A DNA stretch of 41,121 bases from a bacterium (lineage in GTDB: Bacteria > B130-G9), in contig DATLAJ010000141.1 in the NCBI GenBank assembly GCA_035527515.1, positions 1 through 41,121 of the forward strand, read 5' to 3'. Every line of letters starts with the position of its first letter. The first letter of the stretch is position 1. Both the position numbers and the translations under genes were made by a program. The notes under the pieces are model-generated. The model saw nothing but the letters and a program-made list of their open reading frames with translations, did not search any database and was not told the origin of the DNA. Shown here piece after piece: positions 7,919 to 41,121 of this stretch.

Positions 7919-8188
7919 ACGAAGCATCACCTCAATCTTAATTCCACTTGTTCTCGCACAAAACACCGTGCCGCGTCAAGCCGCGGCGAGCCAAAGCGGT
8001 GTCAAGCCACCGCACTCCAAAAAGGCGGTCGCCCACCCGGTCCATCTGATGTTTGGGCTGTTCCGGCAAGCAGCGCCCCTACGGAATGCTGTCCCGGGAC
8101 TTTTGCGCCAGCGTTTTCAGGTTGCAGCCTACAGGTGGCGACTGATAACTTGTGCGCCGTAGCATTGGCGGTGGCGTAAGCGTGAACC

Positions 8189-8216
8189 TTGACCTGCCGT
8201 TGTTTGATAGTAATAT
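8189..8216 (+). promoter_or_regulatory. Predicted sigma70-type promoter of serS
   Basis: TTGACC (8189-8194), a 16-bp spacer, then TAATAT (8211-8216). It lies about 100 bp ahead of the serS start in an otherwise repeat-filled gap. It would give a leader of about 90 nt. Confidence 0.5.
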
Positions 8217-8254
8217 GTTAGGTGGTGCCGAAAAGGCGCCTCCACTCGACCCTT

Positions 8255-8280
8255 CGCCCCGGGGCTTAGTCCCTGGGGCG
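8255..8280 (+). promoter_or_regulatory. Hairpin in the serS leader (possible attenuator)
   Basis: Arms cgccccgggg and ccctggggcg (10 bp with one G-U pair) around a 6-nt loop, followed by only 'tttggg'. It lies between the predicted promoter and the RBS. No T-box signature was seen. It could be a weak attenuator or just another local palindrome. Confidence 0.35.
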
Positions 8281-8313
8281 TTTGGGTCAAAATGATCTGA
8301 GAGGATTTCGGAA

Positions 8314-16732: not shown

Positions 16733-16761
16733 TTGACAGGCCATTCTTGAGTCCGTAGTAT
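16733..16761 (+). promoter_or_regulatory. Predicted sigma70-type promoter of the giant-protein gene cluster
   Basis: TTGACA (16733-16738, consensus -35), a 17-bp spacer, TAGTAT (16756-16761). It lies between pheT and the first giant gene. A start near 16768 gives a leader of about 208 nt. Confidence 0.65.
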
Positions 16762-16816: not shown

Positions 16817-16975
16817 AGAAGGCACTTGATAGGGGCTTGTTGCATGTGTTGAAGTTTTTTTGCTTATGTAGGGTAACTGGGGACGTTTTAAATCGAGATC
16901 AAGTATCTGACTTCCTGTTTGGCTATGACAAAGGTTTTCGCTTCGCCTAAGAGGCCCAATATAGGAGAATATGGG

Positions 16976-19900
16976 ATGCGGGGACGAGTTTGTTTTCTTG
17001 TGGCTCTGATTTTCACATTGAGCGTTGCGGCTGCGGGGTTCGCAGAGTGGATAAACTACTCTCAAACTTGTGATGTTCGCCATATAGCTGTTCAAGGCAG
17101 CAAAGTGTGGTGTGGGACAACTAATGGCAACGGGGCCGCCCGGATTGATTCGGCCGGCAACGTGGCATTCTATACTCAGGCCGATGGGCTACCTTCCGGA
17201 GACATTACTGCTCTGGCGTGCGATAGCCTCACGGTTTGGTTTGGGACGGATGTTGGCCTCTGCATGTTCAACGGCGAGCAGTTTGAGACGTTCACCCGCG
17301 ATGACAGCGGCCTTTTGACCAACAGCATTAGCGCGATCGCGATCGATCCGCGAACGCTGGACAAATATATTGGCACCGAGATCGGGGTGTCGGTTTACGA
17401 TGGTGTCAACTGGAAATCCTACACACCCTACAACAGCGACTTAGCTTCGCCTCACGTCTTGTCGCTTTTCGTTGATCCGGATACGGACGAGCTGTTCGTC
17501 GGCACTGACTTCGGCGTGAGCGTCATGAACATCAGCGACGAGAGCTGGCACCAATACAAGGTCCAGCACGGACTTGTCGCTAACAGGGTTTCCAGCATTG
17601 CCAAGGACGTCGATGGCAATTACTGGTTTGGGACCTATCAGGGCGCAAGCCGCTTCGACGGGAGCAGCTGGTATTCTTACACGGGCACCAATGGTCGCCT
17701 GAGCTCTGACTACGTAACGGACATCGTTGTCTCTTCTGATGGCTATGTCTGGATATCGACTGATAAGGGTCTTAACAGGATTCATGGCTCGGAGACTCTA
17801 GTATTCAATGTCGCCTCTTCCGGGGCAGTTGGCCTGACGACCGATATGGGCTACGCACTTGGCTGCGCCGCGTCCGGTAACGTTTGGATCGGCACTTCCG
17901 GGGGCGTCTTGGCCTTTGATGGTGATGAGTTTGAGTTGCACTTGGGCGACGGACTTGGGAGCAACTACATAACGAGCATTGAGACGCAGGGGAGAGCAGC
18001 GTACTGGTTTGGGACCCGGGATTCCGGCGTCAACAGGCTCGATTCGAGCGGAATGGTCGGCTACAGCGGCCTCGTCTCCGATGCCATCTCCGACATCACC
18101 TCACACTTCGAGGCAGGCAGATGGTATGAGTGGTTTGGCGGCGCCAATGGCATGACCATCTTTGATGGAACGAACTGGTGGAACCCGGGCCTGGTGATGG
18201 CGCCGTTCAGAATGGCGGTTGAGTTCGTTGATCCTGATCCGGAGATTGCGGGCGATGAATACTGGAACAAGTGGGTATGCACTCAGGATAACGGGGTCTT
18301 CGTAATCGTGGGCGCGCTGCCCTCGACTGTTACTAACTACACGGTGGCCAACAGCGGGCTGGTATCGGACACAGTGAACTCAGTCTCGGTTGACGAGGGC
18401 CATGTCAAGTGGTTTGGGACTGATCAGGGTGTCAGCATACTTGGTCCGGGCGGTTCTTGGTCAGCAATATCTGTGCTTGACGGCTTGCCAAGCAACAACG
18501 TCTCCGCTATTGATTTCGCTTCAGATGGCGTGTGGTTTGGAACTGATCAGGGAGTCGCTGTTAGAAAGAGCGACCTATGGACGACCTATCAACACATCGC
18601 TGCCGACGAACCAATGATTGAGGACGCCTTCGCCGCGATGGTTGTCGAGAACGTTGGTGGGAAATGTATTCACTGGTTCGGCGGACAAGGCGGCCTTCTG
18701 GCGTTCGACGGCGATGATTGGACGATTTACAAGGAGGTCAATTCTGCACTTCTTTCGAGCGACGTTCGGGACATAGCGATCGGTTCTGCGGGAACTAAGT
18801 GGGTCTGCACAGCTGGCGGGATTGCGAGCATTGATTCTGGCGGGAGTTTCTGGGTGACGGAGTCAACGATTGTCGGTCTTCTGTCAAATGACGTTCGCGC
18901 GGTCCTGATCGACCCTGACGACAACAAATGGTTCGCAACGGGCGGCGGCGTTTCCAAGTTCGACGGCGCCGGCTGGACCAACTTCGATGTTGCCGGCGGT
19001 CTTTGCTCGAACGACGTGCGCGACGCTGCAATCGACAGGGTTGGCCGCGTCTGGGTTGGCACGGGGAACGGCGTATGTGTGATTGACGGTGGTGCAGTTA
19101 CGCTCAGCTATAACACCGGCAATTCGGGGATAGCCAGTAACGATGTTAGAGCTATCGTTATCGACCGGAACGGTATCAAGTGGCTCGCGACCGACGCGGG
19201 CGTCTGCAAGTTCGATGGGAGCTCGTGGCGGACTTATGACTCCTCAACGTCAGTGTCTGGCCTGCCGTCGGACGACGTTCTGAACCTCTACATTGATAGC
19301 GATTTCAATCTCTGGGCTGCCACTGCGCTCGGGACTGCCAAGTATGACTACGCCGAATGGGACGTGTTTGGGGCAGAGTTCGGGCCGCTTGGTCATAAGG
19401 TCAGTTTCGTTGGCGAAGACTGCCTGGCGAGTGCCTTCTGGTTCGGCACGGAATACGGGCTGGTCGAATATAAACTAGGCAACTGGCATCTTTATTCAGG
19501 AGTTGGGATCGGCTCCAACGCCGTCAATGATTTGAAGGTTGACGGGACAGGCAAGGTCTGGGCTGCGACCGATGGCGGTGTGTCGGTGTTCAGCGATGGC
19601 CTCTGGGCGACGCTCAATCGCGCCACTGGTGGTCCCTCGCATGACGTTGTCAACCGCGTAATGGTTGATTCGGACGACAACAAATGGTTTGCCACGGAGG
19701 GTGGCGGCGCGAGCCTCTACCTTGAGAACCATGATTCTGGCCTGTCAGAGCCTGAGCTTGCGCCGCATTCCGGGCTTCCGGCGACCCCGAAGTTCGAGGG
19801 CACAGGCACGGAGTTTGAGTACTCTGTCTATTATTTTGATCCCGATGTCGAGTTCTCGCCGCTAGGCTATTCGGTGGACGCATATATATATATTGATGGC

Positions 19901-22534
19901 GTTCCATACGATATGTCTCTGGCGTCGGGCGCGGGCTATAACGGGAGGTATTCGTTCTCGGTCGTTGATCTTGCTGAGGGCTCGCACACATACTACTTCT
20001 ACTTCGTGAAGGCGTCCGGCAACATCGTGAAGCTCCCTGCATCTGGCGTGTTTTCGGGCCCAGTCGTTGACGGCTCGCCCCCGACGTCGGCCGTGTATGC
20101 TGACGAATCCCTTCTTCCGTACACGAGGTACAGCCCGTTTCCGCTGCATTTCTCGGCCGAGGATTTACAGAGCGGCATTGCGTCGGTTGCACTCTACGTG
20201 AGACAGCCGGGGGACGATTGGGAGAACACGGGTCTGTCGTCAACGAAGCGCTACGGCGTCTTTGAATACCCTACCTATGTCTCTGGAACGTTCGAGTTCT
20301 GCACTATCGCGGCGAATCATGCTGGCCTTGTCGAAGCGCTTCCGGACGAGGCAGAGTGCACGGTGGTCTATGATCGCCGGGCGCCAAGCTCCTATATAAC
20401 GGCTCAGTCCTACAGGGCGCACGACACGCCGGTTATGAGAATTCCCTATGGGGCGAGCGACGGCGAGAGCGGGATCGACTATGTTGAGCTGTGGCACCGA
20501 CATGAGGACGACCCAGATTTCGGGCGATTCCCGGTAGCGACGCTAGAGCAGGCCAGTGGGCTGTTCATCTACACGGCCGAGAAGGAGGGCTGGCATTACT
20601 TCTACACCATAGCGGTTGACAAGGCCGGAAACCGGCAGTCTGTTCCTCCCACATATTACCACTTCTCCGTTTCTTATGACGGCACGCCGCCTGTCTCGAG
20701 CTGCTCAACAGTCGAGTTTACAGGCACGAACTTCGACGTAAACTTCACTGCGGATGATGCACAGAGTCGGGTCAGAAGTGTTGACCTCTATTATAGGCTG
20801 AACGGCGGGCCAATGTTCCATTACGATGTAATACGCTATAGTGCTGAGGGCGCCTTTCGTTTCGTTGCCCCTCAGGATGGCACCTATGAGTTCTACACTC
20901 AAGCAACAGACTGGGCTGGTAACCAAGAAGAGCTGCCAGCGGCGCCGGACGCAAGCTGTAAATCCGATATTACCCCTCCAACGGCGACAACAAGCTGTCC
21001 AGAGGCAACTCACAATCGCTCTGTTAAAGTGACCTACAGTGTTTTTGACGAGACCTCTGGCGTCAAGGAGGTCACGCTTTGGATTAAGTTCAAAACGGGC
21101 GAGTGGCTTAAGACGGCCTACTTCTCCGAGTATCGGGAGGGAGAGTTCACATTCGACTTCCTCCAAGGAGAGGGATCCTATCAGGTCGCGGCTCTCGGCC
21201 AGGACAATTCCGGCAACCTTACGCCGCTTACCGGTGATTCGGGAGTTTCAGTCTATTACGAGACAGTGCCGCCTCAATCGATTTCTTGGTGCGAGTCGGC
21301 TGGGGAGCTTTCGCCATTCAGGGTTGAGTTCTCATCGAGTGATGAGGGAAGCGGGCTTAAGACCATATTTCTCTATTATCGCTACAACCAGGGCGATTGG
21401 ACCGAGTCGGAAGACCAATACCTTGGGACCCCCGCGGGCGGCTCGTTCTTCTTCTTCCCGATCGAGGGCGGCGGATACTACGAGTTCTACACGCTTGCAG
21501 TTGACAGGGCTGGCAATATGGAGCTTCCGCCTCAGTATGCGGACTGCTCGGCGGTGCTCGACCTCGCTCCGCCGGAATCATCGGCCAGCGCTCCAGGGAC
21601 GGTGATGTTGCAGCCGATTCTGGTTGATTTCGAGGCGAGTGACGACGCCTCTGGCGTGATGTCCGTTGGGCTTTGGTATTCGTTCGAGGACGGTGAGTAT
21701 TCTCGCTTTGACACTATTTGGGGCAACGAGACGGGCACTTTTGAGTTCACGCCAGACGAGGGAGTGGGCGTATACTCGTTCTATACTGTTGCGACTGACA
21801 GAGTAAGCAGGAAAGAGGCAGTCCCGTCGCAGGCAGACGCTATCGTCCTGTACAATCCTGCTGGGCCGGCTCTTGCGCTCCTTGAGGATGATCACGACTT
21901 CGGAACTGTGCTGATCGACAAGACAAAGGCCTGGAATATGCGGCTGGTCAACACCGGCAATTCGCCGGTGAGCGTTGAGAGCGTCGCGACAACAACGCAG
22001 TGCTTCGAGGCAGATTTCAGAGCGCCGGTTGTGATCGGTGCAGGCGAACATCTGGATGTCCCGATCACTTTTGCGCCGGACGAGAGCGGCGCCTTCCAGG
22101 ATACCGTTACGGTCCAAAGCGACGATCCGGACGCCGCGAGCCTCGTTGCTACTGTCAGTGGCGAGGGGGCAAGCGAGACACCGCCCACGATTAGGCTGGC
22201 GAGCACTGGCTCAAAGGTCAGCACCGACGACCGTCTGATTGTCTCCGGCTGGCTAGATAACCCCGGCGATGCCAAGACGGCTGACGTCTATGTGGCTGTT
22301 CGGCTGCCCGGTTCGGACACGCTCTACTTTTACTCCAACTGGGGGTCGTCTCCACAGGCCATCACGGTCAACTTAGGCGAGGCTTCTCAGCTTGGTCCGG
22401 TTGCGCTTCTGGACTTTTGTGTTGGTGATGGCGTTGAGCGTGGCGAGTATGTAGTTTTTGGGGCAGTCGTGGCCCCTGAGACTCGATACGAGTTTCTTTC
22501 TGATATTGCCATATTGAGCATAGTTGTAGAATAA
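16976..22534 (+). CDS. Giant secreted Reg_prop beta-propeller / Ig-module protein, paralogue A
   Basis: 1852 residues from the ATG at 16976, chosen because AGGAG lies 8 nt upstream and a signal peptide follows at once (MRGRVCFLVALIFTLSVAAAGFAEW); a longer TTG frame from 16919 lacks both merits. Residues about 25-919 hold about 21 Reg_prop blades with a recurring 'GLxSNxVxxI...WFGTxxGvxxFDG' pattern, consistent with three seven-bladed propellers. Then come a Y_Y_Y-like beta domain (about 922-1030, 'SHTYYFYFV'), six Ig-like modules of about 95-100 residues (1031-1627, each with 'SGV..V.LYYR' and 'YxFYTxAxDxAGN'), an ASH/HYDIN-type domain (1628-1732, 'DFGTVLIDKT'), and a C-terminal domain (1733-1852) shared with paralogues B and C. 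No membrane helix, kinase or sortase motif follows. It is exported, and its role is unknown. Reg_prop propellers in hybrid sensors bind glycans, which makes ligand binding plausible. Confidence 0.9.
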   Translation: MRGRVCFLVALIFTLSVAAAGFAEWINYSQTCDVRHIAVQGSKVWCGTTNGNGAARIDSAGNVAFYTQADGLPSGDITALACDSLTVWFGTDVGLCMFNGEQFETFTRDDSGLLTNSISAIAIDPRTLDKYIGTEIGVSVYDGVNWKSYTPYNSDLASPHVLSLFVDPDTDELFVGTDFGVSVMNISDESWHQYKVQHGLVANRVSSIAKDVDGNYWFGTYQGASRFDGSSWYSYTGTNGRLSSDYVTDIVVSSDGYVWISTDKGLNRIHGSETLVFNVASSGAVGLTTDMGYALGCAASGNVWIGTSGGVLAFDGDEFELHLGDGLGSNYITSIETQGRAAYWFGTRDSGVNRLDSSGMVGYSGLVSDAISDITSHFEAGRWYEWFGGANGMTIFDGTNWWNPGLVMAPFRMAVEFVDPDPEIAGDEYWNKWVCTQDNGVFVIVGALPSTVTNYTVANSGLVSDTVNSVSVDEGHVKWFGTDQGVSILGPGGSWSAISVLDGLPSNNVSAIDFASDGVWFGTDQGVAVRKSDLWTTYQHIAADEPMIEDAFAAMVVENVGGKCIHWFGGQGGLLAFDGDDWTIYKEVNSALLSSDVRDIAIGSAGTKWVCTAGGIASIDSGGSFWVTESTIVGLLSNDVRAVLIDPDDNKWFATGGGVSKFDGAGWTNFDVAGGLCSNDVRDAAIDRVGRVWVGTGNGVCVIDGGAVTLSYNTGNSGIASNDVRAIVIDRNGIKWLATDAGVCKFDGSSWRTYDSSTSVSGLPSDDVLNLYIDSDFNLWAATALGTAKYDYAEWDVFGAEFGPLGHKVSFVGEDCLASAFWFGTEYGLVEYKLGNWHLYSGVGIGSNAVNDLKVDGTGKVWAATDGGVSVFSDGLWATLNRATGGPSHDVVNRVMVDSDDNKWFATEGGGASLYLENHDSGLSEPELAPHSGLPATPKFEGTGTEFEYSVYYFDPDVEFSPLGYSVDAYIYIDGVPYDMSLASGAGYNGRYSFSVVDLAEGSHTYYFYFVKASGNIVKLPASGVFSGPVVDGSPPTSAVYADESLLPYTRYSPFPLHFSAEDLQSGIASVALYVRQPGDDWENTGLSSTKRYGVFEYPTYVSGTFEFCTIAANHAGLVEALPDEAECTVVYDRRAPSSYITAQSYRAHDTPVMRIPYGASDGESGIDYVELWHRHEDDPDFGRFPVATLEQASGLFIYTAEKEGWHYFYTIAVDKAGNRQSVPPTYYHFSVSYDGTPPVSSCSTVEFTGTNFDVNFTADDAQSRVRSVDLYYRLNGGPMFHYDVIRYSAEGAFRFVAPQDGTYEFYTQATDWAGNQEELPAAPDASCKSDITPPTATTSCPEATHNRSVKVTYSVFDETSGVKEVTLWIKFKTGEWLKTAYFSEYREGEFTFDFLQGEGSYQVAALGQDNSGNLTPLTGDSGVSVYYETVPPQSISWCESAGELSPFRVEFSSSDEGSGLKTIFLYYRYNQGDWTESEDQYLGTPAGGSFFFFPIEGGGYYEFYTLAVDRAGNMELPPQYADCSAVLDLAPPESSASAPGTVMLQPILVDFEASDDASGVMSVGLWYSFEDGEYSRFDTIWGNETGTFEFTPDEGVGVYSFYTVATDRVSRKEAVPSQADAIVLYNPAGPALALLEDDHDFGTVLIDKTKAWNMRLVNTGNSPVSVESVATTTQCFEADFRAPVVIGAGEHLDVPITFAPDESGAFQDTVTVQSDDPDAASLVATVSGEGASETPPTIRLASTGSKVSTDDRLIVSGWLDNPGDAKTADVYVAVRLPGSDTLYFYSNWGSSPQAITVNLGEASQLGPVALLDFCVGDGVERGEYVVFGAVVAPETRYEFLSDIAILSIVVE

Positions 22535-22589
22535 GGACATAATTCGATAACAACCGCGTTCTAACCAAATCTGCGTTGGAGGATTTGTA

Positions 22590-25500
22590 ATGCGAGATAG
22601 ATTACTAGTATTGCTCATCGTGCTGTTTTGCCTAGGGGGATCGGCGGCCCTAGGCCAGGAATGGTATGTTCGCGTGAACAGTGACGACATCAATGCCGTC
22701 TCTGGCGAGGGTGACTCGCTTTGGGTAGTAACCAACAGCGGGGGGACTCTCCTCTGGGACCTTGGTTCCTTTGAGCTTGACAAGTTTTTGAAGTCTCAAC
22801 CTGACCTTTACTCCGACGAGGAGGACGCGAGCGCCACTGTGCGCGTCTGGGTTAGGGAGGAGCTTTTGACGAACTCGTTCACCTCCGTTGCGGTTGGGCC
22901 TTCGGACACGGTTTGGCTGGGCTGCAACGAGGGCATCAACGTGGTCGATACGTCGTCTCACAATGCGTGGGAGTTTGGCATTTCGACGTTCACGGTCTGG
23001 AACTCGTCGCTTCCCTCCAACCAGATTACGACGATCGAGGCGCGCCCGGGCACCGACGAGGTGTGGATTGGGACGCAGGACGCTGGGATTGCTGTTTATG
23101 ACGTGGATATGGGCACGTGGCATGTTTACAGCACTGCGGATGGGCTTGCCTCAAACAGCATAAACTGCATCTACTTTGACGATCACGAGCGGGCTTGGAT
23201 CGGGACCGATTCGGGCGTTACGCAGATCAATATGAACTTTGACCCGTGGACCTACGGGACATATACAACCGCCGATGGCCTTCCATCGAACTTCGTGACA
23301 GGCATTCTTGAGGTTCCATGCTGCTGGATATGGTTCACGACCGACAACGGCGCGGCGCGGGTTGACCTGAACGACAATTGGGACACTTACGGTACCTGGA
23401 CGGATGCGAATTTTGTCTCGAACGACCTGCGGGGGATAGTTGGGGTTGATGACGAGCTCTGGATGTGGTCTGAACTTGGAATAATTGTGCATGACATCAC
23501 CGGTGGGGGATGGAGCTGCTACACGACCGCCGACACCGGCGGAGACCTCTGCTCGGACGACGTCAGGGACGTCTTCGACACCGGCGGAAACCTCGTCGCT
23601 GGGACGCACGGTGGATTGTGCGAATATGACGGCGGGTGGTACTGCTTCTGGGAAGAGCACCTCGCCTCAAACGACCTGCGTGCAATCGCCTGTCAGGAAG
23701 GCGAGATATGGTTCGGGACCTATGGAGCGGGCGCCAACCTGCTCGGCGGCTGGGATGTCAACGAGGGCATGCCCGGCGCGTGGGAGACTTACTCTTACGC
23801 TGCGAGCAATGCGATCGCCTCCAATTATATAAATGACATAGCGCTGGATGACAGGATCGGTGAAGGCGTCGTCTGGTTTGCGACAAACTTGGGCGTCAGC
23901 TTCTTTGATAAGGGGTCGGTTTGGGAGACCTTCGATACGACCAACACGGGCGGTGCGCTGCCGTCTAACCACGTGATGGCGGTTGCGCTTGACCCAAGAC
24001 CTGCGACCGGCGGCGTCATAAGGACTTGGTTTGGCACGGACAATGGCCTGGCATGTTACACGACCGGCTCGACCGTGTGGGATACATATACGACGGCGAA
24101 TAGCGGCCTTCCTTCCAATTACGTAACGAGCCTCGCGGGTGAGGTCAGAGGTAACGGCTATTATCTCTGGATTGGGACCAACTGGGGCGTTGCGGTTCTG
24201 GACGTTGTGAACGACACCTGGACTACTTATGACACTGGTAACAGCGGTATTCTCTCTGAGAACGTGCGCAGCCTCTTGGTCGATGGGGAAGGCTCGGTCT
24301 GGATCGGTACCACTAATGGCATCAGCATCCTTGACCTGCCCAATACTTGGACGTCAATCAGGACGAGCACGCCGGGCTCTGGCCTCGGTAGCAATACCAT
24401 CAACGCGGTGATTCAGGGCTCTGGCAATTGGTTTTGGATCGCCACAAGCCGCGGCCTGACCAAGTTCGACAAATGGAGCATGACGGGCACGCGATTTCTC
24501 CCCACCAACAGTGGACTTATCAATGGCAACGTTTACGACCTGTGTTATCAGTCGTGCGTAGGCATCTGGGCCGCAACCAGAGGAGGCGCCTCGGCGCTGA
24601 GGCAGGGGATGCCGATTCTTTCCGACGAGTCGGTTGAGCCGGCGCTGGGCGGGCCGCTTGATGATTATACATTCACGGTTCATTTCGAGGACTTCGACGG
24701 GTTTGCGCCGTTATCAGGGACGCTGACCGTTGGCGCGAGGGAATACACGATGACGCTGGGCTCGGGCACACCTGACAACGGGGATTACTCCGCGACGATC
24801 AGCCTCGAGCCGGGACATTGGACTTTCTTCTTCGAGTTCGTGGATTCCGACGGCTGTCTGGTTCGGTATCCTACTGGCAGTGGCGTCTTTGAGGGGCCTG
24901 ACATCTACGATGCGTTCGAGCCAGACGACATGTGCATTGACGCTCGCCTCATCTGGGCAAATGGCACCGTCTATGGCGGCCACAACCTCATTCCGCTCGC
25001 ATCAGACGTGGACTGGTTCTACTTCAGGGGCGAGGCTTATATTGATTACACGATTACGATAGCGCCCGCGACAGACTCGTCAGTCGTGGTCGAGATATAC
25101 GAGAGCGACTGCACGACTGGGCCGCTTGAGACCGGCGATTCGACTGCGCCGTTCGTGTTCACACCTGATGAGGGCGCCTATTACTTCCTCAGACTGCTGG
25201 ACCAAGGCTCGAGCACAGCAAGCGGCGGAGCATACTCGCTGAGCATTTCAGGCAACCAGTGGCCGATGATGGGGCACCTCTACACCAGGGTCGCAACCAT
25301 CTCGGCGATCGGTCCGCAGGGCTATTGCGATGTGTTGACCTATTCGACTGGCCCGACAATCGCCTCGAGTCCGGCCGTTGACCCGGCGGGGAATCTCTAT
25401 TTCGGTGCATCATACGGCCGGCTGGTGTCGCTCGATCCCTCGTTCAATGAGCGTTGGGTCTTTGAGTCTGGGGATTCGGAGCCAGTGATGGTCTCGCCAG

Positions 25501-30200: not shown

Positions 30201-30261
30201 GTTGGATTGATGGCAAATTGCGAATAAGGGTAACTCAAATATGGGACGGAGGATAATCGGC

Positions 30262-33200
30262 ATGCTAAGGTCGCGCATTGTAGCGGTTGGGTTAGTTTTT
30301 GCGTTGATGTCCGTTCTTGTTTTCGCTGGTACGGGAATGGCAAAGATAAAGGGGGGTTCGGGCCCGCCGCCTCCACCGCCGGGAGATTCAGGATGGCGTG
30401 CGTACACGGACATGAATCACACTACTTGCGCGGTCGAGGTTAGCGGCCGTGTGTGGGTAGGCACGGGTTATGCGGGGTTGGCCGTATATGATGTCACGAC
30501 GGCCGCCTTGCTCGCCAAGTATCACGGCGTCAAGGACGCGCTTTCGGCCCCGGAAACGATAGTGCACCTAGTAGACCTACCATCTGACTGCATTCTGGAC
30601 ATCACCACGCAAAACGGTATTGTCTGGGCTGCGACAGACCAGGGGCTTGTGAGAATTAACCCAGCTGGCCCGACGTTCAAAACCTATACAAGGCTTACCA
30701 GCGGGCTTTCTTCCGACTACATCAGAAGAATCATGCTCGGCGCAAATCCTGATGAGCCTAGCAGGATCTACTTTATGACCGATTACGGGGTCTGCTCAGC
30801 CACCTATGACTACGGGGTTGATGATTGGAACGACGACTGGGAGTATTTCAACAGCTGGCGCTATCCCGAGTTTGTGTCGGACAATGTGTTCTGCATAGGG
30901 TTCGAGCAGTGTGCTGACGAGCGCGTATTCTTTGGAACAGACTGCGGCGTTATGGTCTTCGATCCATCCATGCCGGAGGCTGATCCGATGCGCTGGTTCT
31001 GCTGGGATTCCTCAAACAGTGGTCTCCCCTCGAATCTCGTCATCGATGTGGCCTTTGCCGAGTGCAGGGAGCTTTTCTTCGCAACTGATGACGGCCTTGC
31101 GGCGCTTGAAGACGGCCAATGGCGGGTCTATACGCAGGCGAGCACGGCCGCACTGGGGCTTTTGGATGACCAGATCGCCCGTATGATCGTCGATCCCACA
31201 GATGACACGGTCTTTTGGCTTGCGACCGGTCGCGGCGTAAACACCTACGACAGAGTGGGTGACGCATGGACAACCTATGTTTCTGGCGAGACCGGCCTCT
31301 GCAACAATGAGGTTCGGGACATCGAGTTTGTGAGTTCGGTTCCGTACTTCGCGACCGAGTACGGTGCTTGTAGGAAGGTCGGTGGTGTCTGGAGGACATA
31401 CTTGGACCCACTAGCATTCAGGGGCTGCGTTTCCGCATTAGGTTTCTATGCTCATGAGGACCTGATGTTCTTGGGGACCTATGGCGGGGGCTTGTATATC
31501 CTCAGTGACTCCAATCCCGCATCGCCAGATTGGACGCATTATTTTGCTGGCGACGGCTCTGGGCTTCCCAGCAACTTCATTACAGCAATTGATATGGTCG
31601 ATGACGAAGATTACGTCATGTTTCTCGGCACTGACGAGGGGTTCGCGGTCGGCGAGGGTGACTACGATGACCTGGACTTCACGACCTACAACATGTCGAA
31701 CACAAGCGGCGGACTGATATCGAACGCTGTTACGGCAGTTGCGGCATACGAGCAGGACGATGAGCTGGCGCTGATCGGCACGCAGCATGGTCTTGCGGTT
31801 TACGACAACAGGTTTCCTTCCCAGGGCTTGAGATGGACGTTCGACACGGTTGAAAGCAGTGATGGCGGCCTGGCTGATAATTGGGTGAACGATATTGCTG
31901 TCTCTCGGGACGGCTCGACGTTCTGGCTGGCCACGATGTGGGGAGCCTCATCCTACGATCCGATTGCTGATGTCTGGCAGACCTTCCGGACAACTAATTC
32001 AGGACTTATCTCGGATATCGTCTTCTGTGTAGATGTTGACCCCGAGGGAAACCCCTGGTTCGGGACGATGCGTGGGGTCTGCACCTGCGCGCCGGACGGG
32101 ACGAATTGGCACAGCTATCGGAAGAACAACACCGGTCTTGCCTCGGACATCGTGCTTAGCATTGAGGTTGACTACGCGGGTTACGTCTGGGCTGGGACAG
32201 ACGCCGGCCTTTCTTGTCTCAATCCCGGGTTGGGCGTGTGTGACTACAACTATTTCGCTGATAATAGCGGCCTGTTCAGCAGTCGCATCTGCTCGATTGA
32301 CGTTGACCCCTATGGGAACAGGTGGTTTGGGACGCAGGTTGGCGTTTCTGAGCTCCTGAATCAGGGGCCGAGCCTCTACGGTGGAGTGGTTACGCCCGAT
32401 ACGGGCGACAGGACGACGGTCTTCGTCTATTCGGTTCATTACAGCGATCCTGAGTGTGAGGGGCCAGTTTACATATTCGCCAGAGTGGATGACACCAACT
32501 ACGATATGACGCTCGTTGATGGCGACTATTGCGACGGCACGTGGGAATACTCCACGACGCTCAGCGCCGGCAACGGTCATAGCTATAGCTTCTTGGCGGT
32601 TGAGGCGGATTGGAACATTGCGGTGGACGGGCCGTATTCAGGCCCGACAGTCTCCGCCGCGCCATACTCGCCCGATCCTTATGAGTGGGACGATTCGTGC
32701 ATGGCCGCAACGCTTCTTCCAACAGACGGCACGTGGCAGGACGGGCACAACCTCGAGCCACCCGGCGATGAGGACTGGTTCGCTTTTGACGCGGAATACA
32801 ACATAACTTACGTTATCGATGTTGAAGATGACGCCGATCCTGACTATGCGGGCAACGTGTATCTCTATGATCTTGGCGACCCGTGCCCCGGAGCGCTTCT
32901 GCGACAGGACCTCGGCGGCGACGAGGCACACATAGTTTTCCCGTGCCTTGTGACGGGACGGTATTATTTGAAGGTTGAACAGGCCAACCCCGCCGAGATG
33001 GGCGCGTATAAGATCAGGGTCTATGGCCCGCAGTGGCCGATGGTTCAGAGGGACCTTGAACGGACGGGCAGCGCTGTCGGCAGCGGCTCGGCGACAACGA
33101 ATCTTCTATGGATATATACGATACCTGACGACATCATCACGACCGCGCCGGTTGTCGATGGTCAGGGGAACGTCTATTTCGGCACGAGCGATAACAGCCT

Positions 33201-36200
33201 CTTCGCCGTTGCGACGGATGGGACGCTGAAGTGGTCCTATCATACGCCGGACGCGGTCTCTGCAACGCCCGCGCTGACATACGACGAGAAGATATTTTTT
33301 GGGACAGAGGGTGGCCAGCTCTATGCCCTGAACAGCGATGGGACGCAGGCCTGGGTTTATGACGGAGCGCTAGGCAGCGCGATCCACGCCGGAGTTACTG
33401 TCAACCGAGTGGAGAACTACACCATCTATTTCGGGGCCGACGACGGCACACTCTATGCCGTCAACGGAGACGGCACTGCGAAGTGGCAATATGCGTGTCC
33501 TGTTCCGGATGAGATTACCGGCACAATCATGGTGGGCGAGCTAGAAAACATCTATTTCGGCGGCGGCTGCGGCACGTTCTACGTATTGTTCCCTGACGGG
33601 ACGCTGGCCTGGAGCTACAACAGCGGCCTTGCGGACAACAGGATGGCCGCGGCTATGGCCACGGACGGCTCCATCTACTTCGGGACCTCGACGAGGCGCT
33701 TTTGCTGCGTTGACCCTCCTGCGCCTCCTGACATGCCCACTTCGGGCACACTTCGCTGGGAGGTCATCATGCCGGCGAGCGTCTATTCGGTGCCAGTGAT
33801 CGCTCCGGACGGGACTGTGTTCTTCGGGTGCGACGACGGCATCATCTATTCCATAGACCAACACAGCACAGCGACAACGATTGTCTATGATGTTGGAGCT
33901 CCCATCCGGTCTGCGCTCGTCATGGACGGTGCGGGACATATTTATTTTGGAGCGGACAGCAACAGATACTATTGTATAACGCAGGCAGGGGACCTGGGCT
34001 GGGAGACCGAGGACCTGAACGAGCCGCCGGCGTTTTCTTGCGCGATCGACAGGAATGGGACGTTCTATTGGGCGAAGCCGGACGGCAAGCTGGTGACCTA
34101 CAACGACATGGTTGTGGCAGATATTTATGCGCCTGCCTCGGACTGCTGGTCTCCGACGTTTGCGAACGCCTCAACTGTCCCGATAGTGGTTGGTTTCAGT
34201 TCTTGGGATGTGGGAGTTCGCAAGACGGGGATCGCCTACACGGAGCTTTGGTATTCTCATGATGGCGGGCCGTGGGCTGCGAGCGGGCTGGATGCCAAGC
34301 TTGGGACGAGCGGGCAGTTTGTGTTCATGCCTTCAGCCGAGGGTGTGTTCGGTTTCGCGACGGTGGCGTACGACAACGCCACTCCCCCGAACGCCGAGAT
34401 TGTGTTTCTGCCCAAGACCACAACGGTCTTTGACGCTACGGTCCCGACATCGCTTTGTGCTGTGGAGCATTACGTGGTCAGCAAGGATGATATTGATGTT
34501 GGCTTTACGCTTGAGGACTACCTGAGCGGGCCGGCCAAGACGAGGCTTTGGCTGCGGTTTAATGATGGAACGTGGTTCTACACTGGCCTTGAGGAGACGG
34601 GCGGTTCGGGCAGCTTTGTTATCACGCTGCCGGAGGATGCTAACGGCAGCTACTACTTCTTGACTCAGGGCGTCGATAACGCTGAGAACTGGGAGCAGGC
34701 GCCCTCGGGGGCGAGCGAGCCGGAGACATGGCTGATCTACGACACGGTGCCGCCGACCTCGGCTTGCACAGCGCCGCTTGATGCGGATACCGCGCCGATT
34801 GCTGTGAGCTATACATCGGGGGATGCGGGCAGCGGGGTGGACAACGTGTCGCTCTACTATACGTATAATAGTGATGGTTCGGACCTGAGCGCCTGGCGTC
34901 GGTATCCGGCGACTGGTGCAGCCCCGGCGGGCACAATTGAGTTTACTCCGCGGGCACAGTCTCCCTGGAACGAAGGTCCTGGGCAGTATCTGTTCGCGTC
35001 CTCTGCGCAGGATAAGTGCGGCAATGTGGAGGATTTCGGCAGGGCGATAAGTGAGGGCAATGTTGCAACAACGAGTTACACGCCCGAGCTCCCGACAAGC
35101 ACGGCCTCGTGTGATGCTTACACGAGCTCGCTGCCGATCACGATAGATTACGTGGCGACGGACAGAAGCGGGATGGGCATTGCAAGCGTCAGCCTCTACT
35201 ATGCGCTTGAGGGTCAGATAGAGCTGTTCACTGGGCGGACTGATTATGGTGTTGACCATGGGACGTTTGCCTACAGCGGTCCTTCCGGCAATCCGCTGTT
35301 GGACGGGGCTTACAGGTTCAGGGTCAAGGTGCAAGACATGGCCGGAGGTGTGCAGAATGACGGTCTTGGTACATGCACAATACTTCTGGACCGGAATGCT
35401 GGGACTTCGAGGGCCAGCGGGCCAGCGTACTCGACCGGCGGGATTATTCCGATCGAGTATACGGCTTGGGACGATTTCTCCGGCGTTGATACTGTTACGG
35501 TGTTTTATCGTCAACCGCCTGGTGGCTGGATGAGCCCGATGGTAGTTGGCCACGGGGAGTTCGGTGTGATTGATTTCGACCCCAGCGCGGGTGATGGTCT
35601 ATATGAGTTCTACTCGATGATGCAGGACAAGGCCGGGAACGCTGAGGCTGTGCCTGACGTTCCGGATTTCACCACGATTCGGGATACGGTTCCGCCCTTA
35701 ACGTTAGCAGTTGTGCCTCTTTTGGTGAGGGAGTCACCAGTCGAGGTTCAGTATCAATCAGAGGCAGATCTTTCGGGGATTGCGAGAGTTGACCTGCTCT
35801 TCGTGCCGCCTGGCGGAAGTGGCTGGATTGAGTCGGGGCTTTCGAGCACGGCCCCAGCGGGCTTCTTCTATTTCGATTTGGGCTATGGAGAGGGGCTTTA
35901 CAAGATAGTTACGAGGGCGACCGATAATGCGGGCAACTTGGAGCTACTGTCGTCCTGGGCTGAGGTAAAGTTCGATGCTACGGCTCCTTTAAGCAGCTGT
36001 TCAGGGCCATACGCAACGGCAAGTGCGCCTCTTAACATTGACTTCAACGCTAGCGATGCCGTCTCTGGTGTGCTCGATGTCCAGCTCTGGTATCGATACG
36101 CGCCGATGATCGGCCATGTGACGGGCGATTGGACGGCGCTTGCGACTCCTGCGACGGTAGCCAGCGGGACATTTTTGTTCGCTGCTCCGCTTGGGGCGGG

Positions 36201-38205
36201 GATTTATGATTTCTACACGCTGTCGCATGATGTTGCGGGCAATTGCGAGCCAGAGCCTGTTGCCTTAACGCCGCCAAAGGCGACAGTTCGCTATGACACG
36301 ACGCCGCCGGTCTCATACAGTCAGGTCTGCGTTATCACTGGGGCGGATGAGCGAGAATGCTCAACGGTTCGTTTCGTTAGGGGACTGCCGTTTATAGTCT
36401 CGTTTTCGACAATCGACGACATTAGCCGTGTGGACAGCACCACGGTTTATTATCGTTTCAACGGAGGCGTGTGGACGGATATTGGTTGGACGGCGTACAA
36501 GCCGATTGGCGAGTTCGTATTCGATATAGACCGGGGTGTTGGGGCCTACGACTTCACAACCATCAGCACGGACGCGGCCGGCAATCAGGAGCTTCTGTCA
36601 GAAGAGGCGGAGTGCACGGCGCATATTGATCTTCACGCGCCCTCCTCATCGTGCGCTTCGGATGAGTATGCTTCTGGTGCGACCATAGACGTGCGTTACA
36701 GTGCTGAGGACGACAGTGGCTTCGTTGATACAGAGCTTCATTTTAGAGAGAACGGGGGACAGTGGGGCGATTCAGGTTTGGTGGGCCACGCTACATTAGG
36801 GACGCTATCATTTGCACCTGAGGAGGATGGTACGTACGACTTCTTCACGCGCGCGGTCGATCTGGCGGGTCGCCCGGAGATCATGAAGAACGAGGCTGAG
36901 TGCACTACGATCTACGACACAACCGATCCATTCTCGTTCGTGAGCGTGCCGGCTTATGTGTCAGCAGCGACCATAACGGACCTCGAATGCACCGGCACTG
37001 ACAACCTTTCTGGGATCGCCGATATGCGGATATATTCCCGGTTTGAATCGGACGACTTCGCGTTCACCGGGCTCGAGACAAACGCGGCTCACGAGACGTT
37101 TACGTATCACTGGCCTGAGGGCGAGGGTAGATATGAGTTGTTCTCGATTGCGAAGGACAAGGCCGGGAACGTTCAGGCGACGCCTCCTTCGGTTATGCCT
37201 TGTTACGTTGACATGACGCCGCCATCGAGTTCATGTATAGAAGTTCGCATCTATGGCGCGATAATGATGGTTCAGTATACGGTCGTGGACAATCTCGCCG
37301 GCGTCGGGCGAGATAAGGACCTTCAGTTGTGGTTCAGCCATGATGGCGGCGATTGGCAGCAGGCCACGAAGGCTACGACTGCGTTCCCGATTAGTAGGTG
37401 GTTTATGTTTACACCACCTGAGCAGGGCGGGCAGTATTCGTTCTACACAATCGCGGTGGACAGAGCCGGCAACGTTGAGGCAGCGCCGGCAGTGGCAGAT
37501 ATCAGTTATACTTTTGGCGAGCTGAAGCCATTTCCCACCTCGTTGGACTTTGGTAAGGTGATTGTTGGCCGAAGCAGCATCCGGAACCTACAGCTGATAA
37601 ACGTCGGGGAGAGCGACGTAAGCGTTACGGCTGCGGTTGCGGTGAGCCCCGAGGGTGTTGTGTCGGAGCAGTTCAAGGTGATCAGCAGGATTCCATTCAC
37701 CGTGCCTGCCGAGGACTACAGCATCATTACCGTGAGATTCACCCCAGCAACCCTGGGCACCATCAGTGCGGTTCTGCGGGTGAGTTGGCAAGAGATCGGG
37801 TCCTTCAGAGGCGGCGCGACCTATGTTGACATGGTCGGTTTTGGCGACGAGCTCTCAGAGCCGACGATCGCCATCGAGGCGACTTCCGCCGGCGAGAAAG
37901 GCGATGAGGAGATGGTTCTTCTCGCCTCGCTGAGAAACCCCGGCGCGAGCCGCGAGGTTGAGGCGTTTGTTGCTGTCGAGGACACTGCGGGGAATCTCTG
38001 GTTCTGGCCAGAATGGAGCACTGAGGTGTCCGGCGTCCCGCTATTCCTTTCCGAGGGCTTCGAGGTGTCCGGTTACGAGCTTCTGAGGATTCCACTTGCT
38101 AGTGTTACACCGGGCAGCTACACGTTCTATGCGGCGCTTGCTGTGCCGGGGACGAGGTTTGAGTTTATTGGTTCGATATCGACTTCGCATTTTCAGGCCG
38201 ATTGA
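30262..38205 (+). CDS. Giant secreted Reg_prop / PQQ-propeller / Ig-module protein, paralogue C
   Basis: 2647 residues from the ATG at 30262, preferred because GGAGG lies 9 nt upstream, as in its neighbours; an in-frame ATG at 30241 would add seven residues. A signal peptide (MLRSRIVAVGLVFALMSVLVFAG) leads to a Gly/Pro linker with six consecutive prolines. Then follow about 14 Reg_prop blades (47-698), a Y_Y_Y-like domain (701-801), a PPC domain (804-923, 'DPYEWDDSC...DEDWFAF'), an eight-bladed PQQ-like propeller (924-1288, 'YFGTSDNSLFAV', 'YFGADDGTLYAVN'), eleven Ig-like modules (1289-2418), an ASH domain (2419-2530, 'LDFGKVIVGRSS') and the shared C-terminal domain (2531-2647). Unlike B, the PQQ propeller passes straight into the modules without a second Y_Y_Y-like domain. 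The gap after B is about 60 bp. Function is unknown. Confidence 0.92.
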   Translation: MLRSRIVAVGLVFALMSVLVFAGTGMAKIKGGSGPPPPPPGDSGWRAYTDMNHTTCAVEVSGRVWVGTGYAGLAVYDVTTAALLAKYHGVKDALSAPETIVHLVDLPSDCILDITTQNGIVWAATDQGLVRINPAGPTFKTYTRLTSGLSSDYIRRIMLGANPDEPSRIYFMTDYGVCSATYDYGVDDWNDDWEYFNSWRYPEFVSDNVFCIGFEQCADERVFFGTDCGVMVFDPSMPEADPMRWFCWDSSNSGLPSNLVIDVAFAECRELFFATDDGLAALEDGQWRVYTQASTAALGLLDDQIARMIVDPTDDTVFWLATGRGVNTYDRVGDAWTTYVSGETGLCNNEVRDIEFVSSVPYFATEYGACRKVGGVWRTYLDPLAFRGCVSALGFYAHEDLMFLGTYGGGLYILSDSNPASPDWTHYFAGDGSGLPSNFITAIDMVDDEDYVMFLGTDEGFAVGEGDYDDLDFTTYNMSNTSGGLISNAVTAVAAYEQDDELALIGTQHGLAVYDNRFPSQGLRWTFDTVESSDGGLADNWVNDIAVSRDGSTFWLATMWGASSYDPIADVWQTFRTTNSGLISDIVFCVDVDPEGNPWFGTMRGVCTCAPDGTNWHSYRKNNTGLASDIVLSIEVDYAGYVWAGTDAGLSCLNPGLGVCDYNYFADNSGLFSSRICSIDVDPYGNRWFGTQVGVSELLNQGPSLYGGVVTPDTGDRTTVFVYSVHYSDPECEGPVYIFARVDDTNYDMTLVDGDYCDGTWEYSTTLSAGNGHSYSFLAVEADWNIAVDGPYSGPTVSAAPYSPDPYEWDDSCMAATLLPTDGTWQDGHNLEPPGDEDWFAFDAEYNITYVIDVEDDADPDYAGNVYLYDLGDPCPGALLRQDLGGDEAHIVFPCLVTGRYYLKVEQANPAEMGAYKIRVYGPQWPMVQRDLERTGSAVGSGSATTNLLWIYTIPDDIITTAPVVDGQGNVYFGTSDNSLFAVATDGTLKWSYHTPDAVSATPALTYDEKIFFGTEGGQLYALNSDGTQAWVYDGALGSAIHAGVTVNRVENYTIYFGADDGTLYAVNGDGTAKWQYACPVPDEITGTIMVGELENIYFGGGCGTFYVLFPDGTLAWSYNSGLADNRMAAAMATDGSIYFGTSTRRFCCVDPPAPPDMPTSGTLRWEVIMPASVYSVPVIAPDGTVFFGCDDGIIYSIDQHSTATTIVYDVGAPIRSALVMDGAGHIYFGADSNRYYCITQAGDLGWETEDLNEPPAFSCAIDRNGTFYWAKPDGKLVTYNDMVVADIYAPASDCWSPTFANASTVPIVVGFSSWDVGVRKTGIAYTELWYSHDGGPWAASGLDAKLGTSGQFVFMPSAEGVFGFATVAYDNATPPNAEIVFLPKTTTVFDATVPTSLCAVEHYVVSKDDIDVGFTLEDYLSGPAKTRLWLRFNDGTWFYTGLEETGGSGSFVITLPEDANGSYYFLTQGVDNAENWEQAPSGASEPETWLIYDTVPPTSACTAPLDADTAPIAVSYTSGDAGSGVDNVSLYYTYNSDGSDLSAWRRYPATGAAPAGTIEFTPRAQSPWNEGPGQYLFASSAQDKCGNVEDFGRAISEGNVATTSYTPELPTSTASCDAYTSSLPITIDYVATDRSGMGIASVSLYYALEGQIELFTGRTDYGVDHGTFAYSGPSGNPLLDGAYRFRVKVQDMAGGVQNDGLGTCTILLDRNAGTSRASGPAYSTGGIIPIEYTAWDDFSGVDTVTVFYRQPPGGWMSPMVVGHGEFGVIDFDPSAGDGLYEFYSMMQDKAGNAEAVPDVPDFTTIRDTVPPLTLAVVPLLVRESPVEVQYQSEADLSGIARVDLLFVPPGGSGWIESGLSSTAPAGFFYFDLGYGEGLYKIVTRATDNAGNLELLSSWAEVKFDATAPLSSCSGPYATASAPLNIDFNASDAVSGVLDVQLWYRYAPMIGHVTGDWTALATPATVASGTFLFAAPLGAGIYDFYTLSHDVAGNCEPEPVALTPPKATVRYDTTPPVSYSQVCVITGADERECSTVRFVRGLPFIVSFSTIDDISRVDSTTVYYRFNGGVWTDIGWTAYKPIGEFVFDIDRGVGAYDFTTISTDAAGNQELLSEEAECTAHIDLHAPSSSCASDEYASGATIDVRYSAEDDSGFVDTELHFRENGGQWGDSGLVGHATLGTLSFAPEEDGTYDFFTRAVDLAGRPEIMKNEAECTTIYDTTDPFSFVSVPAYVSAATITDLECTGTDNLSGIADMRIYSRFESDDFAFTGLETNAAHETFTYHWPEGEGRYELFSIAKDKAGNVQATPPSVMPCYVDMTPPSSSCIEVRIYGAIMMVQYTVVDNLAGVGRDKDLQLWFSHDGGDWQQATKATTAFPISRWFMFTPPEQGGQYSFYTIAVDRAGNVEAAPAVADISYTFGELKPFPTSLDFGKVIVGRSSIRNLQLINVGESDVSVTAAVAVSPEGVVSEQFKVISRIPFTVPAEDYSIITVRFTPATLGTISAVLRVSWQEIGSFRGGATYVDMVGFGDELSEPTIAIEATSAGEKGDEEMVLLASLRNPGASREVEAFVAVEDTAGNLWFWPEWSTEVSGVPLFLSEGFEVSGYELLRIPLASVTPGSYTFYAALAVPGTRFEFIGSISTSHFQAD

Positions 38206-38307
38206 TTCTGTTCTTGGCCAGTTAATGGTTTTCAGTTGTAGATAAGTGTGATGGAAGATATGAAGTAAGTGGACTTCTCGTAACGGTTGATGTAGGAGGG
38301 TTTTCCT

Positions 38308-41121
38308 ATGCTATCAAGGTGGCGGTTAGTCGTTCTTGTCTCGGCGATTGCCAGCATATTGGCTGTCTCTGCGGTGGGCATGTTTTGGCAGCATTTTGTC
38401 AATAGTGATGACATCAGGGCGATCGTTCTAGATGGCGACGAGCTCTGGGCGGGAACGCAGAAGGGCGGCCTGCTGCATTTTTACGATATGACAGGGGCAG
38501 CAGCTTCGATAGAGCGCTGGACTGTTGAGGATGGTCTGCCAACCAACAACATCTCTGCGCTTGCGCACACGATAGACGCGATGTGGGACGAGGAGCTGTT
38601 CTGGCTCGGCACCGATGGTTACGGTCTGCTGGCTTTCGAGCCCATTGCGGGGAACATTGTTGACTCGTTCACAATATCCAACTCGGACATCCCTTCCGAT
38701 AATGTTCAGGCGCTCGGCACGGCAGGGATAGGCTTCATGCACGAGGTCTGGGTCGGAACTGATAACGGGCTTGCCCTTCTTCAGTACATGCTGGGCACGG
38801 ACGCCTGGATCAACTTCACGAGCGCTGACGGGCTTCCCGCGGATGACGTCAGTATCATGTCAGTTTTTGACGATTCATCGGGCGTAATATGGTTTGGTTC
38901 GGTCGGAACGGGGCTCGTCTTTTATAGGCAGATGGGCATGCCTCCTTTCGGGTATTGGGACACCACAAACAGCGAGTTGCCTAGCAACAATGTCAACGCG
39001 GTCGCTCGCACAGGTCAGCCGGGGCTAGGGGACATAGTTTTCTGCGGGATGGATGACTATGGACTCGTGGGGCTGTGGGCGGAGGACAATCCGATAGGCA
39101 GCGCGGGCACAATTGCCAGATACCCACTAGGCGATATGAATATTATCGGGCTTCGGTTTAACTCGATAGACGGTAGGCCAGGTTTGCCCTCCGATCGTGT
39201 TCTCTCGCTTGAGTTCGACGATGATAACAATCTGTGGGTCGGCACTGACGCAGGCGCAGTTTATTGGTGGGTCGTGAATCCCTCCGAAAGCACCATTACA
39301 ACGCAGACGGGTATCACGGGAGTCGTGAATGACATAGCGGCCACCGGTGTTACCTTGCTTCCTTTTGACACAACTGTTTACTTCGGCACGGACTGGCGGC
39401 TTTGGGACCGCTATTTCGACGCCGGTCAGGGCGGCTACACCGTCGGCAGCTTTGAGTATGAGGGTGCACCCCCTAGTAACTATATCCCATCCGTCTATTC
39501 CACAGCTGACGGGAGCTACGAAGATGTCTGGGTCGCCACGGACCGCGGCGCAAGCTCGTTCGATGGAACGAGTTGGACAACGTGGACTGTGGACGATGGT
39601 CTTCCGGCGACGGCGACGGTCGTCAGGCCAGACGGGACTACGGTGTATATAGGGACTGAGGATGGGCTTGTCGTCCTCGATTCTGGGACTGGGGCAATAA
39701 CGGTCTATTCCTCGCCACCACTTCCGGGCAGCTACGTCAATGACGTCGAGGTGAGTGGCGCGCAGGTCCTCGTTGCCACGGATAACGGCGGCGCGAGCTT
39801 CCCTGGCGGCCCGCCATTCACCAATTTCTTACTCGGCTATGACCTCACTTCAATCGCAGTCGATGGCGATGGCGAGCAGTGGTTCGGCAGCGACGGCGAT
39901 GGCCTCTTCAGGGGGACTGGCGGGTTCCGCTACGATATGTCCGGCAGCGGCATTCTCTCTGATAATGTGAGGGATGTTGCGGCCATCGGCGACAATATAA
40001 TTTACGTCGCCACGGATAACGGCGTGTCGCGCCTCAACAAAGACACTCTGGTTTGGACCAATTATCAGATGCTCGATCTCATCTCAGATGACGTGCGTTG
40101 CATCGCGGTCGATCCTCAGGGGCTCCGTCCGTCCGGCTATGACATATTCCCGTTCAGCGAGCACGTCCTATTCGGGACGCCAGATGGTGTGACCAGGCTC
40201 TTCAGATATGCAGACGCATCTGGTTACAGTTACGAGTTCTGGTCGGACTTCGTCCACGATTCCGCCGCTGACCTATCAGAGTCGATTCTGAGCGACAACG
40301 TCTTCGCCGCCAACGTTTTCAGCGGCCGTTTGACCGGGGCAGGTTTTCCCGATGATTTCACAATGAGCTGGTTTGGCCATGATTATGGTGCGTCGTATAG
40401 GGCGCAGGGGCTGCCAGTCTTGTCGAACGGGACGACTTGGGTCTCTGTGGAGGAGAACACCAATCTGAGCGTGGATGTCTATTACGAGGATGAAGAGGGG
40501 CAGGGCCCAATGAGTCCGCCGAACGTTTATCTCTCGAACGATAACGTGAGCGGTCCTTACGATACACGTTGGCCCATGTCCCCGCTGGGCGTTGAGAATC
40601 CGGGCACCTGGCGGAGCACTTTCAGCATGGACCGCGGTCGTTACTTCTACTATTACTATTTTGTTGACGACGACTACACGGTGGCTTGGCTGCCAAGTGG
40701 CAACGGCTACTACAACGGCATTTACTGCCACGACCAATATGAGGACGACAGCTTCTGCGACCTTGCGAACACAATCACCGTGCTTCAGCCGGGCGACTTG
40801 GCGTCTGTGTTCAACCACAGCCTCATTCTCACACCATTGGAGCAGGACCGCGATTGGTTCGTTACCGACATGCCGCTCACCAGCGGTTGGTATTACCACG
40901 TCTGGACGTTCAATCTCGACAGGGCAGATACGGACGTTCAGGTCTGGTCCGGGCCAGACTGCGGCTCAGTCAGCTTTGTCACCGAGGACTTCGGCAACGG
41001 TGGTGCTGTTGATTTCTGGTTTGAGAGCAATGATTCTGACTACCATTACCTAATGGTCAGGGATGGGCATCCCTGGACCTCTGGTCCTGTTCCCATCTCA
41101 TACTATTATGATGTGGCGATC
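38308..41121 (+). CDS. Giant secreted Reg_prop protein, paralogue D (partial, C-terminus beyond window)
   Basis: Reading from the ATG at 38308 gives 938 codons without a stop to the window edge. AGGAGGG lies 7 nt upstream. A signal peptide is clear (MLSRWRLVVLVSAIASILAVSAVG). About 14 Reg_prop blades follow (28-708; 'LWVGTDAGAVYWW', 'VWVATDRGASSFDG', 'IYVATDNGVSRLN'), then a Y_Y_Y-like domain (709-805, 'GRYFYYYYFVDDD') and the start of a PPC-like domain (from about 808, 'YEDDSFCDLAN', 'QDRDWF') that is cut off. By analogy with B and C, a PQQ propeller, Ig modules, an ASH domain and the shared C-terminus would be expected beyond the edge, but this is inference. The gap from paralogue C is 102 bp with no obvious terminator, so it probably belongs to the same transcription unit. 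Confidence 0.9.
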   Translation, partial: MLSRWRLVVLVSAIASILAVSAVGMFWQHFVNSDDIRAIVLDGDELWAGTQKGGLLHFYDMTGAAASIERWTVEDGLPTNNISALAHTIDAMWDEELFWLGTDGYGLLAFEPIAGNIVDSFTISNSDIPSDNVQALGTAGIGFMHEVWVGTDNGLALLQYMLGTDAWINFTSADGLPADDVSIMSVFDDSSGVIWFGSVGTGLVFYRQMGMPPFGYWDTTNSELPSNNVNAVARTGQPGLGDIVFCGMDDYGLVGLWAEDNPIGSAGTIARYPLGDMNIIGLRFNSIDGRPGLPSDRVLSLEFDDDNNLWVGTDAGAVYWWVVNPSESTITTQTGITGVVNDIAATGVTLLPFDTTVYFGTDWRLWDRYFDAGQGGYTVGSFEYEGAPPSNYIPSVYSTADGSYEDVWVATDRGASSFDGTSWTTWTVDDGLPATATVVRPDGTTVYIGTEDGLVVLDSGTGAITVYSSPPLPGSYVNDVEVSGAQVLVATDNGGASFPGGPPFTNFLLGYDLTSIAVDGDGEQWFGSDGDGLFRGTGGFRYDMSGSGILSDNVRDVAAIGDNIIYVATDNGVSRLNKDTLVWTNYQMLDLISDDVRCIAVDPQGLRPSGYDIFPFSEHVLFGTPDGVTRLFRYADASGYSYEFWSDFVHDSAADLSESILSDNVFAANVFSGRLTGAGFPDDFTMSWFGHDYGASYRAQGLPVLSNGTTWVSVEENTNLSVDVYYEDEEGQGPMSPPNVYLSNDNVSGPYDTRWPMSPLGVENPGTWRSTFSMDRGRYFYYYYFVDDDYTVAWLPSGNGYYNGIYCHDQYEDDSFCDLANTITVLQPGDLASVFNHSLILTPLEQDRDWFVTDMPLTSGWYYHVWTFNLDRADTDVQVWSGPDCGSVSFVTEDFGNGGAVDFWFESNDSDYHYLMVRDGHPWTSGPVPISYYYDVAI

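Follow-up and report, generated by a model that had tools for sequence, protein, structure and literature searches.

What do four giant, consecutive genes encode that carry the propellers of bacterial sensors and no recognisable kinase? The question is posed by a contig of 41,121 nucleotides (C141), analysed here at its whole length as the window, from the lineage Candidatus Coatesbacteria, for which there are almost no experimental data. Four consecutive plus-strand open reading frames (ORFs) occupy positions 16976-41121, so the row of giant same-strand genes described in the initial annotation is real. Our preferred explanation, which we give about an even chance of being right as a whole, is that the four genes form one conserved transcription unit for exported, surface-held binding proteins. 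The part that may be new is a short domain shared by their C-termini (CTD); propellers free of signalling, as in this cluster, are already known in kind.

All four proteins have hydrophobic, signal-peptide-like N-termini, as called by a home-made rule and not by SignalP (Table 1). For gene 1, an alternative TTG start lies at 16919, upstream of the ATG at 16976. The genes are separated by gaps of 55, 40 and 102 bp; the first and last agree with the earlier values, while the middle gap, previously put at about 60 bp, reaches 61 bp only if gene 3 starts at its second ATG. The upstream neighbour pheT precedes gene 1 in all four genomes of the phylum (G000-G003) among the 241 compared. Elsewhere in the window, an apparent multi-spanning membrane protein of 710 aa (5368-7500, minus strand) and a protein of 555 aa, hydrophobic in its N-terminal part and repeat-like, by eye TPR-like, in its C-terminal part (2968-4635, plus strand), lack family matches, in Pfam or NCBIfam for the former.

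Table 1. Features of the propeller gene cluster and its upstream flank, in window coordinates.
Feature	Position	Strand	Description or basis
pheT	14531..16663	+	Conserved upstream neighbour in all four lineage genomes; outside the system
Promoter-like site	16733..16761	+	Between pheT and gene 1; consensus match only
Gene 1	16976..22534	+	1852 aa from ATG: signal peptide, 21 Reg_prop blades, six Ig, ASH, CTD
Gene 1 head	17039..19732	+	21 Reg_prop blades; blade profile, Foldseek to BT4663/BT3049/BT4673/PorZ
Gene 1 stalk	20066..21853	+	Six tandem Ig-like domains; AlphaFold2 mean pLDDT 84; OmpL47-type above cut-off
Gene 1 ASH/DUF1573 (choice-of-anchor-D-like)	21854..22180	+	Family match and AlphaFold2 model
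Gene 1 CTD	22181..22531	+	Beta-sandwich in model; CTD profile match
Gene 2	22590..30200	+	2536 aa: signal peptide, ~14 Reg_prop blades, PPC-like segment, PQQ-type propeller, Ig array, ASH, CTD
Gene 2 PQQ/ACSF4-type propeller	25374..26309	+	PF13570, 149.9 bits (cut-off 133); PF13360
Gene 2 CTD	29862..30197	+	CTD profile match
Gene 3	30241..38205	+	2654 aa: layout as gene 2, 14 Reg_prop blades
Gene 3 PQQ-type propeller	33100..34020	+	PF13360 above cut-off; PF13570 below its cut-off
Gene 3 CTD	37873..38202	+	CTD profile match
Gene 4	38308..41121	+	First 938 residues: signal peptide, 13-14 Reg_prop blades; cut by contig end

The truncated gene 4 could be completed from another contig of the same genome (C91), which starts with a 13-bp in-frame overlap to the window end and whose first ORF (L040:1-6241) aligns to the gene 4 orthologue exactly from the window stop onward. 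The joined gene encodes 3013 aa and continues with a PQQ-type propeller region, Ig and ASH-like domains and, at its end, the same C-terminal domain as the other three; the extension past 41121 proposed in the initial annotation thus completes the gene. A GC-rich inverted repeat lies 3' of gene 4, and the next genes stand ~320 bp away; together, repeat and gap leave the four-gene unit fairly well bounded. These next two genes (L040:6564-8102 and 8106-9524, G000:C91) encode two more exported proteins with a CTD, and were not seen behind gene 4 in G002, a genome of another genus. Within the window, the genes flanking the cluster include no recognised dedicated secretion or anchoring gene, which had been suggested as something to look for; in C91 and in G002:C86 the analysis covered a listing of the neighbours. 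The genome does encode a type II secretion gene cluster at another locus.

The propellers called in the initial annotation were recovered by HMM search. Reg_prop (PF07494) scored above the Pfam cut-off in all four proteins, and a propeller-blade profile trained on gene 1 counted 21 blades in that protein and 13-14 per protein for genes 2-4. The head of gene 1 is probably three seven-bladed propellers, an arrangement that rests on the blade count since the model of the head is of low confidence (pLDDT 59). The best fold matches of this model by Foldseek were the Bacteroides thetaiotaomicron sensors BT4663, BT3049 and BT4673 together with PorZ, with low global TM-scores, as expected where the relative placement of propellers in a model is unreliable. 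A phmmer search of PDB sequences likewise returned BT4663, BT3049 and BT4673 as nearest. A PQQ/ACSF4-type propeller was found in genes 2 and 3, as had been claimed. Two further labels appear to be look-alikes by position or pattern: the PPC domain had no Pfam match at E 0.1, and the Y_Y_Y-like domain (PF07495) had none in the four proteins and one sub-threshold match elsewhere in the genome, with beta strands present at the place expected for it in the structure models (pLDDT 59 for the head, 84 for the C-terminal half). Pfam matched no kinase, receiver or DNA-binding domain in complete genes 1-3 or in gene 4 up to the window end; from there on, gene 4 can be aligned throughout with a propeller-Ig orthologue and terminates in the CTD.

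Behind the propellers, genes 1-3 matched the Ig modules (Big_13, OmpL47-type) and the ASH/DUF1573 (choice_anch_D) domain that had been proposed for them. The AlphaFold2 model of the C-terminal half of gene 1 (mean pLDDT 84) begins with an incomplete sandwich, continues with six Ig domains and the ASH domain, and closes with a beta-sandwich. The choice-of-anchor D model NF012200 (cut-off 45) scored 47.0 bits in gene 2, and 37.1 and 39.2 bits, both below cut-off, in genes 1 and 3. When this half of gene 1 was used for a fold search, the only matches were general multi-Ig proteins, with no specific relative of the CTD among them.

The CTD is a beta-sandwich of ~110 aa. Its profile matched genes 1-3, from which it had itself been built, at E 1e-50 or better; the common C-terminus noted earlier is nonetheless real and recurs throughout the genome. 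No family match was found in Pfam, NCBIfam or PDB sequences, one member having a marginal match to DUF4785 (E 0.014). The profile of the last ~110 residues matched 129 places in the genome, and the fetched sequence contained 126 domains in 107 ORFs, some with tandem pairs. The domain lies within 40 aa of the C-terminus in 86 of these ORFs, directly behind the signal peptide in 19 and internally in 2. Among ORFs of at least 330 aa, it is near the C-terminus in 81 of 100, against ~7 expected by random placement (maximum 17 in 2000 simulations). By our home-made rule, 91 of 99 CTD ORFs (92%) have a signal-peptide-like start, versus 175 of 585 other ORFs. The system is not confined to the four genes, given that the CTD is found on ~100 other exported proteins. 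Among 72 C-terminal carriers, Reg_prop was matched in 18, beta-helix in 14, a PQQ-type propeller in 7, FG-GAP in 4 and C25 peptidase in 2. The possibility that the CTD acts as a strict sorting signal of the C-terminus was considered and is weakened by the 19 copies behind a signal peptide and the two internal ones. In being placed at one chain end or the other, the CTD is reminiscent of attachment modules, SLH and carbohydrate-binding domains for example.

Several carriers deserve mention in their own right. The two C25-family peptidases are gingipain/PorU-like and carry the CTD though no type IX translocon is detectable. The largest carrier in the genome is a 6033-aa frame, open at its contig start, with Ig modules and two tandem CTDs (L043:1-18099, G000:C84). 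Proteins with the CTD behind the signal peptide form a second exported class (L044, L046, L048, L067, L070, L073, L074, L082, L086, L099 and others), in which the following regions resemble, by eye, right-handed beta-helices or formylglycine-generating enzymes, and many members terminate in '...DMGYHYPIP' or a close variant.

Across the 241 genomes, the CTD occurs in 12, the four of the phylum and eight others, with many copies in G050, G079, G089 and G221. In sampled loci of these four it is mostly C-terminal, with several copies elsewhere in the distant genome G050. The type II secretin GspD scored above cut-off in 84 of the 241 genomes, comprising 11 of the 12 with the CTD (the exception being G001, 83% complete) and 73 of the 229 others (Fisher p 5e-5, also if the phylum enters as a single count). 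The type IX translocon component SprA (SprA_N model) was detected in none of the 12 CTD genomes, G000-G003 included, and in 65 of the 229 others (Fisher p 0.04, or 0.12 if the phylum enters as a single count). Few lineages underlie the link between the CTD and type II secretion, which may stem from shared ancestry or from the type of cell envelope. On contig C53, the genome under study has a cluster with GspD and GspG above cut-off together with genes of the F, K and M types; it also encodes an outer-membrane Omp85 and contains no Por_Secre_tail, the type A C-terminal sorting domain. The type II cluster (L140:517-11561, G000:C53) also includes a 715-aa protein matching both PilM and PilN, and in this respect GspL-like.

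Our preferred explanation draws on the domains, the lack of a kinase match, the short gaps, the inverted repeat, the conserved gene order, the one-to-one orthologues, the likeness of the heads to glycan-sensing propellers and PorZ, the placement of the CTD, its co-occurrence across genomes with GspD but not SprA, and the presence of type II and Omp85 genes. From these we infer co-transcription, surface location, ligand class, export route and the role of the CTD. The four genes would be transcribed as one unit, and each protein, made with a signal peptide, would pass through the inner membrane by Sec. Ligands, most likely glycans by analogy with BT4663 and PorZ, would be bound by a head of two or three seven-bladed Reg_prop propellers, to which genes 2-4 add a PQQ-type propeller. 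The row of Ig modules and the ASH domain would serve as a stalk, and the CTD would hold the protein at the surface or mark it for export. Export is predicted to run most likely through the genome-encoded type II system, because that system carries folded proteins (PMC7949064) and its genes are present; counting against this route, 2500-3000 aa would make an unusually large type II cargo. A bolder proposal, which we regard as rather unlikely, casts the CTD as a so far unrecognised module for export or surface attachment in a pathway linked to type II secretion. In this lineage ~100 proteins of each genome would use it, the four giants being its largest propeller-bearing clients, and several distant lineages without type IX secretion have it as well.

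The main competitor to any such role holds that the CTD does no more than cap or space the chain, as a generic Ig-like unit uninvolved in export or anchoring, the proteins being simply secreted or periplasmic and adhesin-like. We consider this possible, if somewhat doubtful. It would account for a domain that has an ordinary beta-sandwich fold, sits at either chain end, behind the signal peptide in 19 proteins, and has no recognised partner machinery beside the cluster. It accounts less well for a domain that is almost never internal, that is attached to folds as unrelated as propellers, beta-helices, FG-GAP repeats and C25 peptidases, and that exceeds 100 copies in one genome while being absent from most others.

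The conservation of the cluster bears on what the heads do. The same gene order had been suggested as something to search for in other genomes, and G002 has all four orthologues in the same order, at 57, 55 and 52% identity for genes 2-4 and ~53% for gene 1, which is split over two contigs. The paralogues among the four are 24-30% identical. This one-to-one relationship, with orthologues at 52-57%, indicates that the duplication is older than the genera and that each copy was kept, which fits the earlier suggestion that the paralogues may bind different ligands. A contig search with the orthologues matched only genomes of the lineage itself, and a literature search returned nothing on this architecture in Coatesbacteria. 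Alternatively, the proteins might build a structural layer or matrix, such as an S-layer, sheath or intercellular fibres, with propellers for self-assembly instead of ligand capture. Very large size, repeated stalks, four co-conserved paralogues and ASH domains would all suit such a material. However, the heads are conserved between orthologues at least about as well as the stalks and yet differ greatly between paralogues, a pattern that suits binding specificity, and we judge the structural role to be distinctly unlikely.

Ligand binding by the heads could also serve signalling, if the four proteins were detached sensor subunits acting through separate membrane kinases. Their closest solved relatives are indeed sensor domains of hybrid two-component systems, but the genes next to the cluster in the window include none recognised as a kinase, and a long Ig stalk with ASH domain and CTD is better suited to surface display, so we rate detached sensors as highly improbable. 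That the four are PorZ-like parts or cargo of type IX secretion is barely credible and largely refuted, for while all four match the PorZ model, PorZ likewise joins propellers to a C-terminal sandwich and two CTD proteins are C25-family peptidases, the PorZ scores of genes 1-4 (125.7, 59.0, 55.3 and 57.7 bits) fall far under the cut-off of 260 bits, SprA is detected in 65 other genomes and in none of the four of the lineage, and Por_Secre_tail is missing from the genome.

Taken together, surface-held binding proteins remain the reading we favour, and the CTD is where it has wider reach. One unnamed domain at the ends of ~100 exported proteins of unrelated folds, in genomes with a type II secretin and an undetectable type IX translocon, is a directly testable candidate for cargo recruitment. 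The mechanisms by which type II substrates are recruited have been called 'elusive' (PMC7949064), and, if the proposal were true, the CTD would be one of few domains that label proteins of many unrelated folds as cargo for type II secretion. The cluster itself contributes a conserved case of sensor-type propellers outside signalling, with up to 21 blades and joined to other propellers and stalks.

The closest known systems each resemble part of this architecture. BT4663, BT3049 and BT4673, the nearest PDB matches in sequence and fold, have two seven-bladed Reg_prop propellers followed by a beta-sandwich. In these sensors, a membrane helix fuses the propellers to a kinase, whereas the four proteins here have no kinase match and add a PQQ-type propeller (genes 2-4), an Ig stalk, an ASH domain and a CTD, with 21 blades in gene 1. 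This comparison supports the initial view that sensor propellers have been separated from signalling; its novelty does not hold, given the precedent of PorZ from the Porphyromonas gingivalis type IX system. PorZ combines, at the cell surface, two seven-bladed propellers with a C-terminal sandwich, and its authors compare it with BT4663 (PMC5121618); it binds a specific lipopolysaccharide glycan (PMC8545088). The four proteins can be likened to it as kinase-free propeller proteins with a C-terminal beta-sandwich and a predicted place at the cell surface, but PorZ has ~780 residues and a type IX signal domain, while they are two to four times longer, end in another domain and belong to a genome with no detectable type IX system. 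Choice-of-anchor D proteins (NF012200) share the ASH/Hydin-like domain just before a C-terminal domain, above cut-off in gene 2 and below it in genes 1 and 3, whereas the domain that follows here is absent from NCBIfam. OmpL47-type and Big_13 Ig-array proteins have tandem bacterial Ig modules like those found here, a likeness confined to the stalk, their models being silent on the propeller head.
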